A program made the translations under genes and the position numbers. Shown here in pieces: positions 1,357 through 51,733 of a stretch of DNA of 51,733 nucleotides; the stretch's first letter is position 1, and the number at the start of each line of letters is the position of its first letter. The notes below the pieces were generated by a model that was not told the origin of the DNA, ran no database searches, and saw only the letters and a list, made by a program, of their open reading frames with translations. The stretch comes from Sphingomonadales bacterium (GTDB lineage Bacteria; Bacteroidota; Bacteroidia; UBA7662). Location: assembly GCA_016872215.1 (NCBI GenBank), contig VHAX01000014.1:1-51733 (forward strand), in the 5' to 3' direction.

Positions 1357-1474
1357 TGACCGAAATAAACCTGTTGACGGCAGACTATACCCACCCAACG
1401 TGACCTGATTTCCAAAAAGTATTTCAGATGAGCAGTATATATGGTTGGAATGGGTTGATTCGTTTAAAGCAAAA

Positions 1475-2530
1475 ATGACCGAAGTCAGAAGAACAGCGGC
1501 CATCACGGGTGTGCACGCCTGGGCACCAGATAATGTGGTGACCAACGCCCGGCTAGAACAGATGATGGATACTACTGATGAGTGGATCACCGCTCGGACG
1601 GGCATAAAGGAGCGTAGGTGGATGGAGGAGATCGGGCAAGCCACGTCCGATCTAGCCGTCAAGGCGGTGGAGGGCTTGTTGAAAAAGACAGGCACGGATC
1701 CCATGGATATTGAATTGCTGATTTGTTGCACGGCCACACCCGACATGGCCTTTCCGGCAACCGCCAACATCATAACTGATAAGCTCGGAATGAACCGAAC
1801 CGCAGGATTCGACCTGTCTGCTGCCTGCTCTGGCTTTCTTTTTGGGGTGAATACAGCCGCTCGTTTTATTGAAAGCGGTATGTACAAAAAAGTCATTGTG
1901 GTTGGGGCCGACAAAATGACCTCAATCATGGACCTACAGGAGCGCTCAACCGCCATCATTTTTGGAGATGCCGGGGGCGCTGTATTGCTCGAGCCCGATA
2001 CAGATGGTTACGGCATAATCGATGGCATCATGTGCAGCGACGGCATTGGCCGCACTTATCTTTGTCAGAAAGCGGGCGGTTCGCTGAATCCGGCAAGCGC
2101 GGAAACCATAGCCCGGAAGGAGCATTACATACACCAGGAAGGTAAAGCCGTTTTCAAGTTTGCCGTCACCAACATGGCTGGGGTAGCGGAAGAGATTATG
2201 GAGCGAAACGGGCTTACGGCTGGCGATGTGCAGTGGTTGGTGCCACACCAGGCCAACAAACGCATTATTGATGCCACACGCGAACGAACCGCACTTCCAG
2301 AGGAAAAAGTAATGGTCAACATACAGCGCTACGGCAACACCACCAACGCCTCTATACCCCTTTGTCTGCATGAATGGGAACCCCAATTGAACAGGGGCGA
2401 CAACCTGATCTTCGCGGCATTTGGCGGGGGCTTCACCTGGGGCTCGCTTTATGTTCGCTGGGCTTATGACGGTGCCAAGGCCCTGAATCTTTCCGATGTT
2501 AAGCCGGGTCAACTCAACCTGATTCCTTAA
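1475..2530 (+). CDS. fabH: 3-oxoacyl-[ACP] synthase III (KAS III)
   Basis: FabH condenses acetyl- or branched acyl-CoA with malonyl-ACP to start type II fatty-acid synthesis. The 351-residue thiolase fold carries the Cys-His-Asn triad: C118 in DLSAACSG, H258 in WLVPHQANKR and N288 in RYGNTTNAS. I chose the ATG at 1475, because the family starts close to the AAITGVHAW strand; an in-frame TTG at 1445 would add ten atypical residues. It follows rpmF by about 120 bp, with no plsX between as in many other phyla. It precedes efp and the acetyl-CoA carboxylase subunits, which make its substrate malonyl-CoA. Confidence 0.95.
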   Translation: MTEVRRTAAITGVHAWAPDNVVTNARLEQMMDTTDEWITARTGIKERRWMEEIGQATSDLAVKAVEGLLKKTGTDPMDIELLICCTATPDMAFPATANIITDKLGMNRTAGFDLSAACSGFLFGVNTAARFIESGMYKKVIVVGADKMTSIMDLQERSTAIIFGDAGGAVLLEPDTDGYGIIDGIMCSDGIGRTYLCQKAGGSLNPASAETIARKEHYIHQEGKAVFKFAVTNMAGVAEEIMERNGLTAGDVQWLVPHQANKRIIDATRERTALPEEKVMVNIQRYGNTTNASIPLCLHEWEPQLNRGDNLIFAAFGGGFTWGSLYVRWAYDGAKALNLSDVKPGQLNLIP

Positions 2531-2551
2531 TTAACTAAATAAATCGACGAA

Positions 2552-3118
2552 ATGGCCTCAACTTCGGAATTTCGCAACGGACTCTGCATCAAATTCAACC
2601 ACGACATCTACCAGGTGGTCGAATTTCTACACGTAAAACCTGGTAAAGGCGCTGCATTTGTGCGCACCAGACTCAAAAGTATGACCAACGGCAGGGTATT
2701 GGAAAACACCTTCCCCGCCGGAGCCAAAATCGACACCGTTCGCGTAGAATCCCGCGAATTGCAGTTCATCTACAAAGATGATCTGGGCTTCAACTTTATG
2801 GATAGCGAAAGTTTTGAGCAGTTTTCGGTAGAGGAGCATAAAATCAATGCCTCAAGGTTTCTGAAAGATGGGGCCGTTTGCCTGGCACTGGTGAACTCGG
2901 AGGACGAGAACATTCTGGGCCTCGAATTGCCGCATATGGTGGAAATGGAGGTAACCTACACAGAGCCTGGCTTAAAGGGCGACACCGCCAGTGGTTCCGC
3001 TTTGAAGCCAGCGGTGGTCGACAATGGCCCGACCGTACAGGTACCCTTATTCGTAAACCTGGGCGACCGGATCCGAATCGACACCCGTACAGGTGATTAC
3101 GTTGAAAGAGTCAAATAA
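2552..3118 (+). CDS. efp: Translation elongation factor P
   Basis: EF-P relieves ribosome stalling at polyproline stretches. The protein has 188 residues, the usual length, with three beta-barrel domains. The domain I tip loop reads HVKPGKGAAFVR, so residue K32 occupies the position that is post-translationally modified in many bacteria. The C-terminal NLGDRIRIDTRTGDYVERVK is typical of OB domain III. It starts 21 bp after fabH and 18 bp before accB. The efp-accB-accC order is widespread in bacteria and suggests one transcript. Confidence 0.97.
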   Translation: MASTSEFRNGLCIKFNHDIYQVVEFLHVKPGKGAAFVRTRLKSMTNGRVLENTFPAGAKIDTVRVESRELQFIYKDDLGFNFMDSESFEQFSVEEHKINASRFLKDGAVCLALVNSEDENILGLELPHMVEMEVTYTEPGLKGDTASGSALKPAVVDNGPTVQVPLFVNLGDRIRIDTRTGDYVERVK

Positions 3119-26528: not shown

Positions 26529-27434
26529 ATGGATTGGGTTCAGGAATTCCTCCGATATCAAAAGTTTGAAAAGCGATGCTCTCCCCATACATTGAGGGCC
26601 TATGGGGCGGACCTTCAAGCCGTTCAGTCCTTTAGGAATTTGACGTTCAACATCCAAACGCCGTTATCGGAGTCGAACTACCACGAACTTCGCGCTTGGG
26701 TGGTTTCCCTGCTCCAGTCCCGCCAGTCACCCGCTAGCGTAAACCGCCGGATTTCCACTATAAAATCATACTTTAGTTTCTTGCGTCGACGAGAATTGCG
26801 GGTCGACAATCCGGCGACGCGCATCAAGAGGCCCAAATCGGCCCGGCCATTACCCCCCATGGTGCCGCTGACGGATATGCAAAAGTTGCTCGATCAGGGT
26901 GCTGCGGCCGCAGAGACCTCCTTCGGGGCCTGCCGCGACCATCTTCTGCTGTCGCTCCTATATGGTACGGGTATGCGGCGCGCCGAACTGCTCAGGTTGA
27001 GATTGGACGATGTAAATTTCGCCACGGGGCAGGTTCGCGTCCTCGGAAAACGTAACCGTGTGCGGCTCATTCCACTGCCCACGGTAGTTTGTGCCGAATT
27101 AGGCGACTTTATCCTTCAAAGAAAAAATGTAGTCCAGGACACGGAATTAGATGCGCTCTTCGTTAATGATAGAGGTATGCCCATCAGCGAGTCCTATTTA
27201 TACAGGTGTGTACGAAGAATTCTCAGTCAGGTGAAAGCATTGCCCAGAAGGAGTCCGCATGTGCTTCGTCACACCTACGCCACGCATCTGCTCGATCAGG
27301 GAGCGGGACTACAGGACGTGAAGGAACTGCTTGGGCATACCAGCCTGGCTGCTACGCAGGTCTACACGCATCGTTCTATCGAAAAACTCAAAGAGGTGTA
27401 CCGCGCAGCTCATCCCCATTCCGGAAAAAACTAA
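26529..27434 (+). CDS. Tyrosine recombinase XerC/XerD
   Basis: A 301-residue site-specific recombinase of the XerC/D type that resolves chromosome dimers at dif. The N-terminal SAM-like DNA-binding domain (about 1-88) is followed by the catalytic domain with all residues present: R150 (GTGMRRAELL), K174 (LGKRN), H244 and R247 (SPHVLRHTYA), H270 (LLGHTS) and nucleophile Y279 (TQVYTH). I chose the ATG at 26529 (MDWVQEFLRY); a TTG at 26517 would add four residues. Its place between rpsU and the hibernation factor is the conserved Bacteroidota order, so it is a housekeeping rather than a mobile-element recombinase. Confidence 0.92.
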   Translation: MDWVQEFLRYQKFEKRCSPHTLRAYGADLQAVQSFRNLTFNIQTPLSESNYHELRAWVVSLLQSRQSPASVNRRISTIKSYFSFLRRRELRVDNPATRIKRPKSARPLPPMVPLTDMQKLLDQGAAAAETSFGACRDHLLLSLLYGTGMRRAELLRLRLDDVNFATGQVRVLGKRNRVRLIPLPTVVCAELGDFILQRKNVVQDTELDALFVNDRGMPISESYLYRCVRRILSQVKALPRRSPHVLRHTYATHLLDQGAGLQDVKELLGHTSLAATQVYTHRSIEKLKEVYRAAHPHSGKN

Positions 27435-27837: not shown

Positions 27838-27910
27838 GCCTCCTTAGCTCAGCTGGTAGAGCAACTGATTTGTAATCAGTAGGTCGCTGGTTCGATTCCG
27901 GCAGGGGGCT
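27838..27910 (+). tRNA. tRNA-Thr(TGT)
   Basis: Acceptor GCCTCCT/AGGGGGC (one T-G pair), anticodon stem ACTGA/TCAGT with loop TTTGTAA, anticodon TGT. Discriminator T at 27910. CCA is not encoded (CGT follows), so it must be added after transcription. Confidence 0.96.
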
Positions 27911-27926
27911 CGTGTTGTTTTATGCC

Positions 27927-28010
27927 GGGGAGATACCAGAGTGGCCAAATGGGGCAGACTGTAAATCTGTTGCGAAAGCTTCGGAGGTTCGAATCCTCCT
28001 CTCCCCACCA
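27927..28010 (+). tRNA. tRNA-Tyr(GTA)
   Basis: A class II tRNA with a long variable arm. Acceptor GGGGAGA/TCTCCCC, anticodon loop CTGTAAA with GTA at 27961-27963, discriminator A at 28007 and CCA encoded at 28008-28010. Confidence 0.96.
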
Positions 28011-28034
28011 CCTGTTCTTTTTGGTTCAGGTAAT

Positions 28035-28110
28035 GCGGGAGTAGCTCAGTTGGTAGAGCGACAGCCTTCCAAGCTGTAGGTCGCGGGTTCGAACCTCGTC
28101 TCCCGCTCCA
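28035..28110 (+). tRNA. tRNA-Gly(TCC)
   Basis: Acceptor GCGGGAG/CTCCCGC, anticodon stem ACAGC/GCTGT with loop CTTCCAA, anticodon TCC at 28068-28070. Discriminator T, CCA encoded at 28108-28110. Confidence 0.96.
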
Positions 28111-28147
28111 ATGTGGAGCTTCGGGTGTGAATCCGGCACTTCCAATC

Positions 28148-28168
28148 GCGATGAAAGACGTTCATCGC
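28148..28168 (+). promoter_or_regulatory. Perfect 8-bp hairpin between tRNA-Gly and tRNA-Thr
   Basis: GCGATGAA (28148-28155) pairs with TTCATCGC (28161-28168) around AGACG. No T run follows, so it is more likely an RNA-processing or spacing element in the tRNA precursor than a terminator. Confidence 0.5.
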
Positions 28169-28177
28169 TAGAATCAG

Positions 28178-28252
<75 letters not shown>

Positions 28253-29571: not shown

Positions 29572-29644
29572 ACGGGTGTAGCTCAATTGGCAGAGCGATG
29601 GTCTCCAAAACCATAGGCTGGGAGTTCGAGTCTCTCCACCCGTG
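29572..29644 (+). tRNA. tRNA-Trp(CCA)
   Basis: Acceptor ACGGGTG/CACCCGT, anticodon stem ATGGT/ACCAT with loop CTCCAAA, anticodon CCA at 29605-29607. Discriminator G at 29644. The 3' terminal CCA is not encoded (CAT follows). Confidence 0.96.
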
Positions 29645-29663
29645 CATCAGATAGATTAGAGCC

Positions 29664-49604: not shown

Positions 49605-49612
49605 TATTTTTG
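49605..49612 (+). promoter_or_regulatory. -7 element TATTTTTG upstream of 3-hydroxybutyryl-CoA dehydrogenase
   Basis: An exact TAnnTTTG ending 15 bp before the ATG at 49628. No well-spaced -33 TTG is visible. Confidence 0.5.
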
Positions 49613-49627
49613 CGGAAAATTGAATGT

Positions 49628-50515
49628 ATGAAAAAGATTGTCGTGGTGGGAGCGGGCACTATGGGCAACGGAATCGCCCATGTTTTTGCACAAAATGGAT
49701 ACCATGTGCGGTTGGTGGATGTGTCTGAATCGGCCCTACAACGGGGCATGCAAACCATCGAAAAGAACCTCGATCGCATGTTGGCCAAGGGCAGCCTCAC
49801 CGAGGCCGATAAGACGGCTACTTTGGGTAGGGTAACACCCCATTTGGCCATCGACAGGGGATTGGCCGATGCGGATCTGGTTGTGGAAGCTGCCACGGAG
49901 CGGGTCGAATTGAAACTGGATATTTTTCGTTCGCTCGATAAAATTGTAGCCCCAGAGGCGATCCTGGCCAGTAATACTTCGTCGATAAGTATTGGGAAAA
50001 TCGCCTCCGCTTCCCTTCACCCGCAACGTGTTATCGGAATGCATTTTATGAACCCCGTGCCGGTTATGAAGCTGGTGGAGATCATCAAAGGTTACAACAC
50101 CTCGGATGAGGTGGCACAACGCATTCGCGATCTTTCCGTGGCGCTGGGCAAAATTCCCGTATTGGTGCACGACTACCCCGGATTTGTGGCCAACCGCATT
50201 TTGATGCCCATGATCAATGAGGCCATTCAAAGTCTGTTTGAAGGGGTAGCAGGGGTGGAGGAAATTGATCAGGTGATGAAACTGGGCATGGCCCATCCGA
50301 TGGGGCCACTTCAGTTGGCCGATTTCATTGGGTTAGACGTTTGCCTGGCTATTTTACGCGTACTTCAGGAGGGATTGGGACAACCCAAATATGCCCCTTG
50401 TCCCTTGTTGGTGAATATGGTAACCGCCGGACACCTCGGCGTTAAATCCGGCTCCGGCTTTTATGAATATACCCCAGGCAGCAAGGAGGTGCGCGTAGCC
50501 GCCCGATTTCAGTAA
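49628..50515 (+). CDS. 3-hydroxybutyryl-CoA dehydrogenase
   Basis: A 295-residue NAD(P)-dependent enzyme that interconverts acetoacetyl-CoA and 3-hydroxybutyryl-CoA. The N-terminal Rossmann motif [16 protein letters not shown] (6-21) is followed by the catalytic set S118 (SNTSS), H139 (GMHFMNP), E151 and N189 (VANR). The C-terminal helical domain ends [12 protein letters not shown] chose the ATG at 49628; an in-frame TTG at 49610 lies inside the promoter element. It could work with the acyl-CoA dehydrogenase encoded at 25028 in fatty-acid or butyrate metabolism, but they are not linked in one operon. Confidence 0.94.
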
Positions 50516-50827
50516 TATTTCTTTTTGATTTGGGTTTTCCATATCGAGATAAACGCAGAGGGGTGGCTCTTCTACGCTGGATTGCTCGTATTTGCCGTGG
50601 TAACTTTTTATATTCCGTCCATCACCACCAAACCGCTTCCGCAAACGCATGTTTATCAAGCACTTGCATTTTGGTTTTGCGTCGGTGCCATAGAAAGTGC
50701 ACAACACAATTTTCCAAGGACACCCTTAAAGACCTTTTCTAACGTCGTTCTGAAGCCTTCCCTGCACTCTTTCGAGGCGCAACCCGAGGCGTGGATTTTG
50801 GGCCGGGAAGGGCATGTATTTCGAGCC

Positions 50828-50948
50828 GGGAGGGGGAGTAAGGGTGGAAATATAGGGGGACTTGAGAGGGAATGGGGAAAACCTCTAGGGGTTAGGGAGA
50901 GAAGGAGGGGTTGGATTGCTAGGATGGCGGTGTAGGCGGGTTGGGGGG
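50828..50948 (+). repeat. G-run cluster (G-quadruplex-prone stretch)
   Basis: Eleven runs of three to six G on the plus strand in about 120 bp (for example 50832-50836, 50855-50859, 50943-50948), with few C. Such spacing can fold into one or more G-quadruplexes. Confidence 0.7.
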
Positions 50949-50971
50949 TCTTGTGAAATACCAGTTATCAC

Positions 50972-51007
50972 AAAAACCCGCTAATGAGGTATGGAAGCGA
51001 GGTTTTT
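50972..51007. terminator. Terminator-like hairpin with A- and T-flanked stem
   Basis: AAAAACCCGCT (50972-50982) pairs with AGCGAGGTTTTT (50996-51007) with one bulged base and a 13-base loop. The A5 and T5 ends allow function in both directions. It may end transcripts from the hbd side or shield the AT-rich locus. Confidence 0.5.
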
Positions 51008-51398
51008 GGCTTGGAATAGTCAGGATTGGCTATTTATGGCCTTGTTCAAGAAAATGGGTACTTACACTGGAAAAATGCTAGAAAGCCTTTTTTAGGTCTT
51101 TTATTTGGAAATCCTGACGATAACAATCAATAGCCGACAACAGGCAAAATGTCATGGAAATTGATTAATTTTGGAAATCCGCATAGTACTTGGAGGGTGA
51201 TTCAGCCTGCCGCGGCCTATAGGCGGAAAGTTGTGGGCAATTTTAAAAACAAGACGGTTTGCGAATGCCAACGGGCTGAACACCCAATGTGACATAAAAT
51301 AGTATTATTGAACTATAAAAGAGGAGACCAGAACCCTCTAAAATAAACGGGGCGTATTCTGAAAAGCCAAACGAGTAGGAAAAATAAATTTAAATAAA

Positions 51399-51733
51399 AT
51401 GGAACAAGCAAGAAACAAAGATCAAAAATGTCCGGTTGTACTTTTATTAGACACTTCCGGTTCCATGTGCGACGAAGCCAATGGAGTGAAAGCGATTGAT
51501 GAGTTGAACAAAGCTATACAATCACTTAAAGATGAAATTATTTGCGATCCTATACTCTCACAGAGACTTGAATTAGGAATCGTTTGCTTTGATGATGATG
51601 CAAGGGTGGAAAAGTCAATCGACCTAGTATCGCCAGAAAGTAGTTTACCGGTTTTACAGGCGGGTGGTACAACCAATGTGGTTGCAGGGATGAACAAGGC
51701 TATGGAAATTATTGAGGAAAGAAAAGCTTTTTA
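51399..51733 (+). CDS. Cytosolic VWA-domain protein, TerY-like (3' end outside window)
   Basis: The first 111 residues of a von Willebrand factor A domain protein. The MIDAS metal site is intact: D18-x-S20-x-S22 in LLLDTSGSM, the Thr in GGTTN (91-92), and acidic residues in CFDDDARV. There is no signal peptide or membrane segment, so it is cytosolic. The sequence resembles TerY-type VWA proteins, which often sit with a PP2C phosphatase and a protein kinase in stress or defence loci. Whether that holds here is outside the window. The gene is AT-rich, unlike its neighbours, suggesting transfer. The ATG at 51399 follows an A-rich leader. Confidence 0.8.
   Translation, partial: MEQARNKDQKCPVVLLLDTSGSMCDEANGVKAIDELNKAIQSLKDEIICDPILSQRLELGIVCFDDDARVEKSIDLVSPESSLPVLQAGGTTNVVAGMNKAMEIIEERKAF

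Follow-up and report, generated by a model that had tools for sequence, protein, structure and literature searches.

The window analysed here is a whole contig (C14, 51,733 nucleotides) of a draft genome of 2.09 Mb that is split into 53 contigs; that the window edge is a contig end was missed in the first-pass annotation. It stops within an open reading frame that starts at 51399 and stays open through the contig end (111 residues), so that the sequence downstream of 51733 is unread. The following features occupy this end of the window:

49610..50515, plus strand: 3-hydroxyacyl-CoA dehydrogenase gene, the left (core) flank of an insertion (Pfam 3HCDH_N, 212.6 bits; 3HCDH, 121.9 bits)
50516..51084, no strand: lineage-specific spacer without a convincing gene, with G-runs at about 50820-50950 (sequence and congener comparison)
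51085..51404, plus strand: shared leader block of 320 bp (upstream DNA, RNA and start codon), 75% identical to contig C19 of genome G011
51230..51298, plus strand: segment GTTGTGGGCAATTTTAAAAACAAGACGG...GGGCTGAACACCCAATGTGACA, common to leaders of unrelated genes (found in G109:C4; similar words in G023, G019, G053 and G093)
51303..51310, plus strand: TATTATTG, a weak candidate, recognised by eye, for a Bacteroidota -7 element (TAnnTTTG-like); similar words stand at the same place in loci L002, L003 and L015
51316..51385, plus strand: DUF805 RNA (Rfam RF03081), a cis-regulatory leader (78.6 bits; gathering threshold 51.1)
51399..51733, plus strand: 5' portion of the gene for a TerY/YegL-like VWA protein, truncated by the contig end (open reading frame, Pfam VWA_2 and relatives)

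The protein encoded at the contig end matches Pfam VWA_2 with 29.5 bits (cut-off 27). A signal peptide is not apparent, and the N-terminal MEQARNKDQKCPVV of the protein is kept in its relatives. The intracellular VWA domain proposed in the first-pass annotation is thus borne out. The complete MIDAS motif that had been claimed for it is so only in part: the DxSxS element (D18, S20 and S22) and the T (T91/T92) are seen, i.e. two of the three elements, whereas the final aspartate (the D of TDG, D124 in the numbering of L007) falls past the end of the sequence, so that completeness is not supported. The gene was also described as AT-rich, and its GC content is indeed 39.9%, compared to a mean of 52.2% (sd 3.8) in 333-bp windows of the first 50.5 kb, of which only 0.2% are as low. 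Likewise, its GC3 is 33%, compared to 56-60% in the neighbouring genes. The gene-poor boundary with G-runs that was said to precede it is present as the stretch 50516-51398.

The VWA gene is part of an insertion that is specific to this lineage and separates two core genes. A homologue of the dehydrogenase is found in 16 of the 17 genomes of the family, with 90% identity in the congeners G002 and G003. In both congeners it is followed, after a gap of about 120-190 bp, by a small lipoprotein gene. In G003 an SH3/NlpC_P60-like gene comes after the lipoprotein gene; the G002 contig stops before this point. The window's own genome, like genera g3 and g4, has an NAD(P)H-hydrate gene (YjeF_N/Carb_kinase) between the lipoprotein gene and the SH3/NlpC_P60-like gene. 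In the own genome, this right-hand gene set stands at the start of contig C38 in the orientation that fits, and the lipoprotein gene ends at C38:541. Because of this synteny, which is the one line of evidence that joins the two contigs, C14 and C38 most likely represent opposite sides of a single insertion whose middle is unassembled. Its flanks, placed at the synteny break with the congeners, are C14:50515 on the left and C38:541 on the right, and the part between the contigs is unread. C38 has extra AT-rich DNA of its own and, at positions 3-185 of its minus strand, the start of a HEPN-domain gene (a fragment, 39.7 bits).

Within the insertion, the spacer at 50516-51084 yielded no blast match among the other loci compared, and the congeners match only up to the dehydrogenase. 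Direct repeats at both insertion edges amount to just 17-bp matches at chance level. The VWA gene is absent from the three congeners and from 13 other members of the family, and a match was found in just 6 of the 395 genomes of the class. The suspicion of an accessory locus therefore stands, since the segment is not present in all relatives, which would have spoken against it. We consider that the inserted signalling module was probably acquired horizontally.

Directly upstream of the VWA gene lies the DUF805 RNA, which the first-pass annotation did not mention and which Rfam lists as a cis-regulator (RF03081). The match covers all 68 model positions, and the 3' end of the RNA is 13 nt ahead of the start codon. 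In the window copy all seven pairs form and both helices are intact, with a U-A pair swapped to A-U in helix 1. Across 32 copies of the RNA, both helices are paired in 99.6% of cells, and six of the seven pairs have changes on both sides, compared to 0.9 in shuffles. Three further copies occur in the own genome (G000:C13:25720-25789, C6:87430-87499 and C6:64890-64955), the first two of them ahead of AT-rich predicted membrane-protein genes that are unrelated to each other. One copy was found in the congener G001 and none in G002 and G003. The window copy resembles known DUF805 RNAs in its full-length match, its conserved helices and its position directly 5' of a start codon; it differs in that it precedes the gene of a cytosolic VWA signalling protein, whereas most other copies, by inspection, precede membrane or exported proteins. 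Separately, one copy (L038, G030:C8) stands before a gene that, judged from its translation alone, resembles a microbial rhodopsin. None of the other VWA homologues examined is preceded by a DUF805 RNA, so that the leader does not belong stably to the VWA system.

Three relatives of the VWA protein (L005, L006 and L007) emerged from a scan that covered 84,980 species genomes; their identity is 64-66%, or 67-69% over the 106 residues of aligned columns. In all three, the order is VWA, PP2C_2 and protein kinase on one strand. The PP2C_2 domains score 71.6-97.2 bits and the kinase domains 29.0-39.5 bits against a cut-off of 31.7, with L006 (29.0) slightly below it; the kinase DxKPxN and the PP2C DG motifs are kept. 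In the tree, the window protein joins L005 and L006 with support of 98/96 within a clade of triad-bearing sequences. Among remoter Bacteroidota homologues, G386 has a triad (VWA and PP2C by Pfam, the kinase by sequence), as does G078 (PP2C and kinase by Pfam). Since the three nearest relatives each have all three genes, a TerY-P-like triad is likely at the window locus as well, and by analogy PP2C and kinase genes likely follow the VWA gene.

In PMC11090510, which cites Anantharaman et al. 2012, the TerY-P triad is a set of a TerY-like VWA protein, a PP2C phosphatase and a Ser/Thr kinase, the latter usually with a zinc ribbon. The same source connects such triads with tellurite resistance and related forms with defence against phages, and their switch logic is still to be worked out. 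The window protein belongs to the same VWA family, and L005-L007 share the gene order on one strand. In contrast, their kinases (351-358 aa) do not extend past the kinase fold and contain two cysteines apiece, and therefore lack a zinc ribbon; no OB or HhH C-terminal domain was found in them either. The kinase with zinc-ribbon or HhH domains that had been anticipated is thus not what the nearest relatives encode. A further difference is an extra proline-rich, apparently membrane-anchored open reading frame in L005 and L006, and from the window locus itself only part of the VWA gene has been read. A second known system is yegL-pphC-yegI of E. coli, in which YegL is 41% identical to the window protein and the annotated order is yegL, pphC (phosphatase) and yegI (kinase). 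YegI, however, has 646 aa and is almost twice as long as the kinases of L005-L007. PADLOC returned no TerY-P hit and just weak kinase-domain matches to PD-T4-6 and mad6.

Some further genes were seen around the triads of the relatives. The extra reading frames after the kinase (L005:2941-3710 and L006:3111-4127), both cut by contig ends, encode short repeats of acidic residues, a region rich in proline and what looks like a membrane segment; the one in L006 has no match in Pfam or NCBIfam. Directly 5' of the triad, L006 carries a reading frame with five near-identical repeats (LGKAIIKGEEYYLPxGDLG; positions 64-369), and L007 a HipB/HipA pair (positions 1362-3007; HipA_C, 172.9 bits). This HipBA pair and the HEPN gene on the far side of the assembly gap point to a toxin or defence neighbourhood, although a defence role is a guess.

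We thus propose, with a probability of roughly 0.75, that the gene in which the window ends is the first one of an accessory insertion and that its product is an intracellular TerY/YegL-like VWA protein, most likely the first member of a TerY-P-like phosphorylation triad of VWA, PP2C and Ser/Thr kinase. The best-supported reading is that of a TerY-P-like phosphorylation switch that would be expressed from a portable DUF805-RNA leader. The RNA would control expression of the mRNA and the VWA domain would bind a metal and a partner protein. Judging from the relatives, the kinase and the PP2C phosphatase would then switch a target on and off, which might act in defence, toxin control or stress. 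The triad suggested by the first-pass annotation is supported in part, by the PP2C and kinase genes that follow the VWA gene in all three closest relatives, but these partners were not found elsewhere in the own assembly.

This last result bears on the alternative that a solo VWA gene was acquired singly behind a DUF805 leader, with no phosphatase or kinase after it. We searched the own assembly for the PP2C and kinase of this clade and found neither, in a search without a positive control, which makes the result weak; their absence, which counts against the triad, is also what is expected, without being proof, if both genes lie beyond the contig end in the assembly gap. A single acquired gene would fit the observation that most of the DUF805-RNA loci looked at have one short gene behind the leader, and two of the remoter Bacteroidota homologues (G058 and G130) are indeed solo VWA genes. 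These are, however, just 34-35% identical to the window protein, whereas the relatives with 67-69% identity all bear triads, and we regard a solo gene as unlikely. Even less probable is that the AT-rich end of C14 is foreign to the own genome, owing to mis-binning or a chimeric contig, as the sharp change in composition and the contig break within a gene could suggest. The own genome contains three other DUF805-RNA copies, and the two of these that were examined are equally AT-rich and lie mid-contig. Furthermore, C38 has the expected right flank together with its AT-rich extra DNA and HEPN fragment, and the best match of the leader is to G011, which belongs to the same family. A TerY-P-like triad behind the DUF805 leader remains our preferred reading.

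The match to G011 also shows that the leader is shared between unrelated genes. In G011:C19, from another genus of the family, the leader block precedes an unrelated membrane-protein gene, and the likeness ends just past the ATG. We surveyed 75 DUF805 copies above the cut-off and found that their 74 open reading frames fall into 50 protein clusters. Thirty pairs of loci have similar upstream regions (E < 1e-6); the proteins are dissimilar in 27 of these pairs and common in 3. In most of the pairs that were inspected singly, the similarity spans the RNA up to about the start codon and then ends. Furthermore, the upstream block occurs again 3' of the gene in the same direction at 16 loci, with 28 hits compared to 1 on the opposite strand; some of the same-direction recurrences belong to the following unit in a tandem array. 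At L014 (G049:C4:1-1923), the gene with the DUF805 RNA lies between direct-repeat copies of 130 bp that are 99% identical. The repeat is an imperfect hairpin or inverted repeat, and its identity starts with AAC and ends with CGTT. The unit begins with a sequence complementary to the outer box of the copy downstream. Across all loci this complementarity is modest (5 of 66 compared to 1.4 expected; 3 of 200 shuffles were as high). One DUF805 RNA (L158, 62.2 bits) was found on the conjugative alphaproteobacterial plasmid pNK6d of Bradyrhizobium diazoefficiens (1977-2045), where a short uncharacterised gene follows the RNA and transposases are near.

This leader swapping looks cassette-like. A tentative idea is that DUF805 RNAs mark an unrecognised mobile gene cassette in Bacteroidota. 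Such a cassette might start at a GTT-edged recombination site, bring a promoter of its own together with a structured RNA leader able to serve any following gene, end in an attC-like inverted repeat and depend on a non-canonical tyrosine recombinase for its movement. The TerY-P-like module of the window would be one cargo. Several observations argue for it: the leader likeness that stops at the start codon of unrelated genes across genera and families, the upstream block that reappears 3' of the gene in the same direction (28 compared to 1), the nearly identical repeat that flanks one gene with its outer box complementary to the unit start, and the copy on the Bradyrhizobium plasmid.

Integron cassettes, which are flanked by attC, are a further known system for comparison. 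The likeness is that some genes with a DUF805 RNA have a direct copy of one imperfect inverted repeat, with GTT/AAC edges, on either side, and an attC-like repeat is present at some of the other DUF805-RNA loci. The differences are the non-canonical edges of the repeat, the missing integrase above the cut-off and the window, where no hairpin was detected. None of 24 genomes, the own genome included, has an integron integrase above the cut-off of TIGR02249. Matches below the cut-off occur in all 24 genomes and also in 13 of 14 control genomes, and thus the scan gives an integron no support. In the window stretch 50516-51400, the best attC-like hairpin scored 14, which is within the noise of a weak, nearly strand-symmetric scanner. 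We therefore do not class the window locus as an integron cassette. Among the recombinases below the integron-integrase cut-off are five tyrosine recombinases (G000:C16:2631-3446, G049:C44, G023:C57, G117:C25 and G019:C84) that fit both ends of the integrase model and skip its middle (model positions about 180-237).

According to PMC9024848, integrons are very rare in Bacteroidetes, and in this phylum the DUF805 leader may be part of a cassette system. A leader common to unrelated accessory genes, with a likeness that ends at the start codon, is a testable case of a portable expression module. In addition, a Bacteroidota clade whose kinase lacks the usual C-terminal domain offers a simpler version of the triad for study. 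In phages, a search with the whole leader gave no match and a search for VWA relatives just three weak unannotated records; pattern searches of IMG/VR yielded no exact DUF805 pattern and no confirmed VWA relative. Elsewhere in the window, a tRNA cluster (Thr-Tyr-Gly-Thr) lies at 27838-28252, with a Trp tRNA 1.3 kb further on (29572-29645) and a XerC/D-like recombinase just ahead of the cluster (about 26643-27371).
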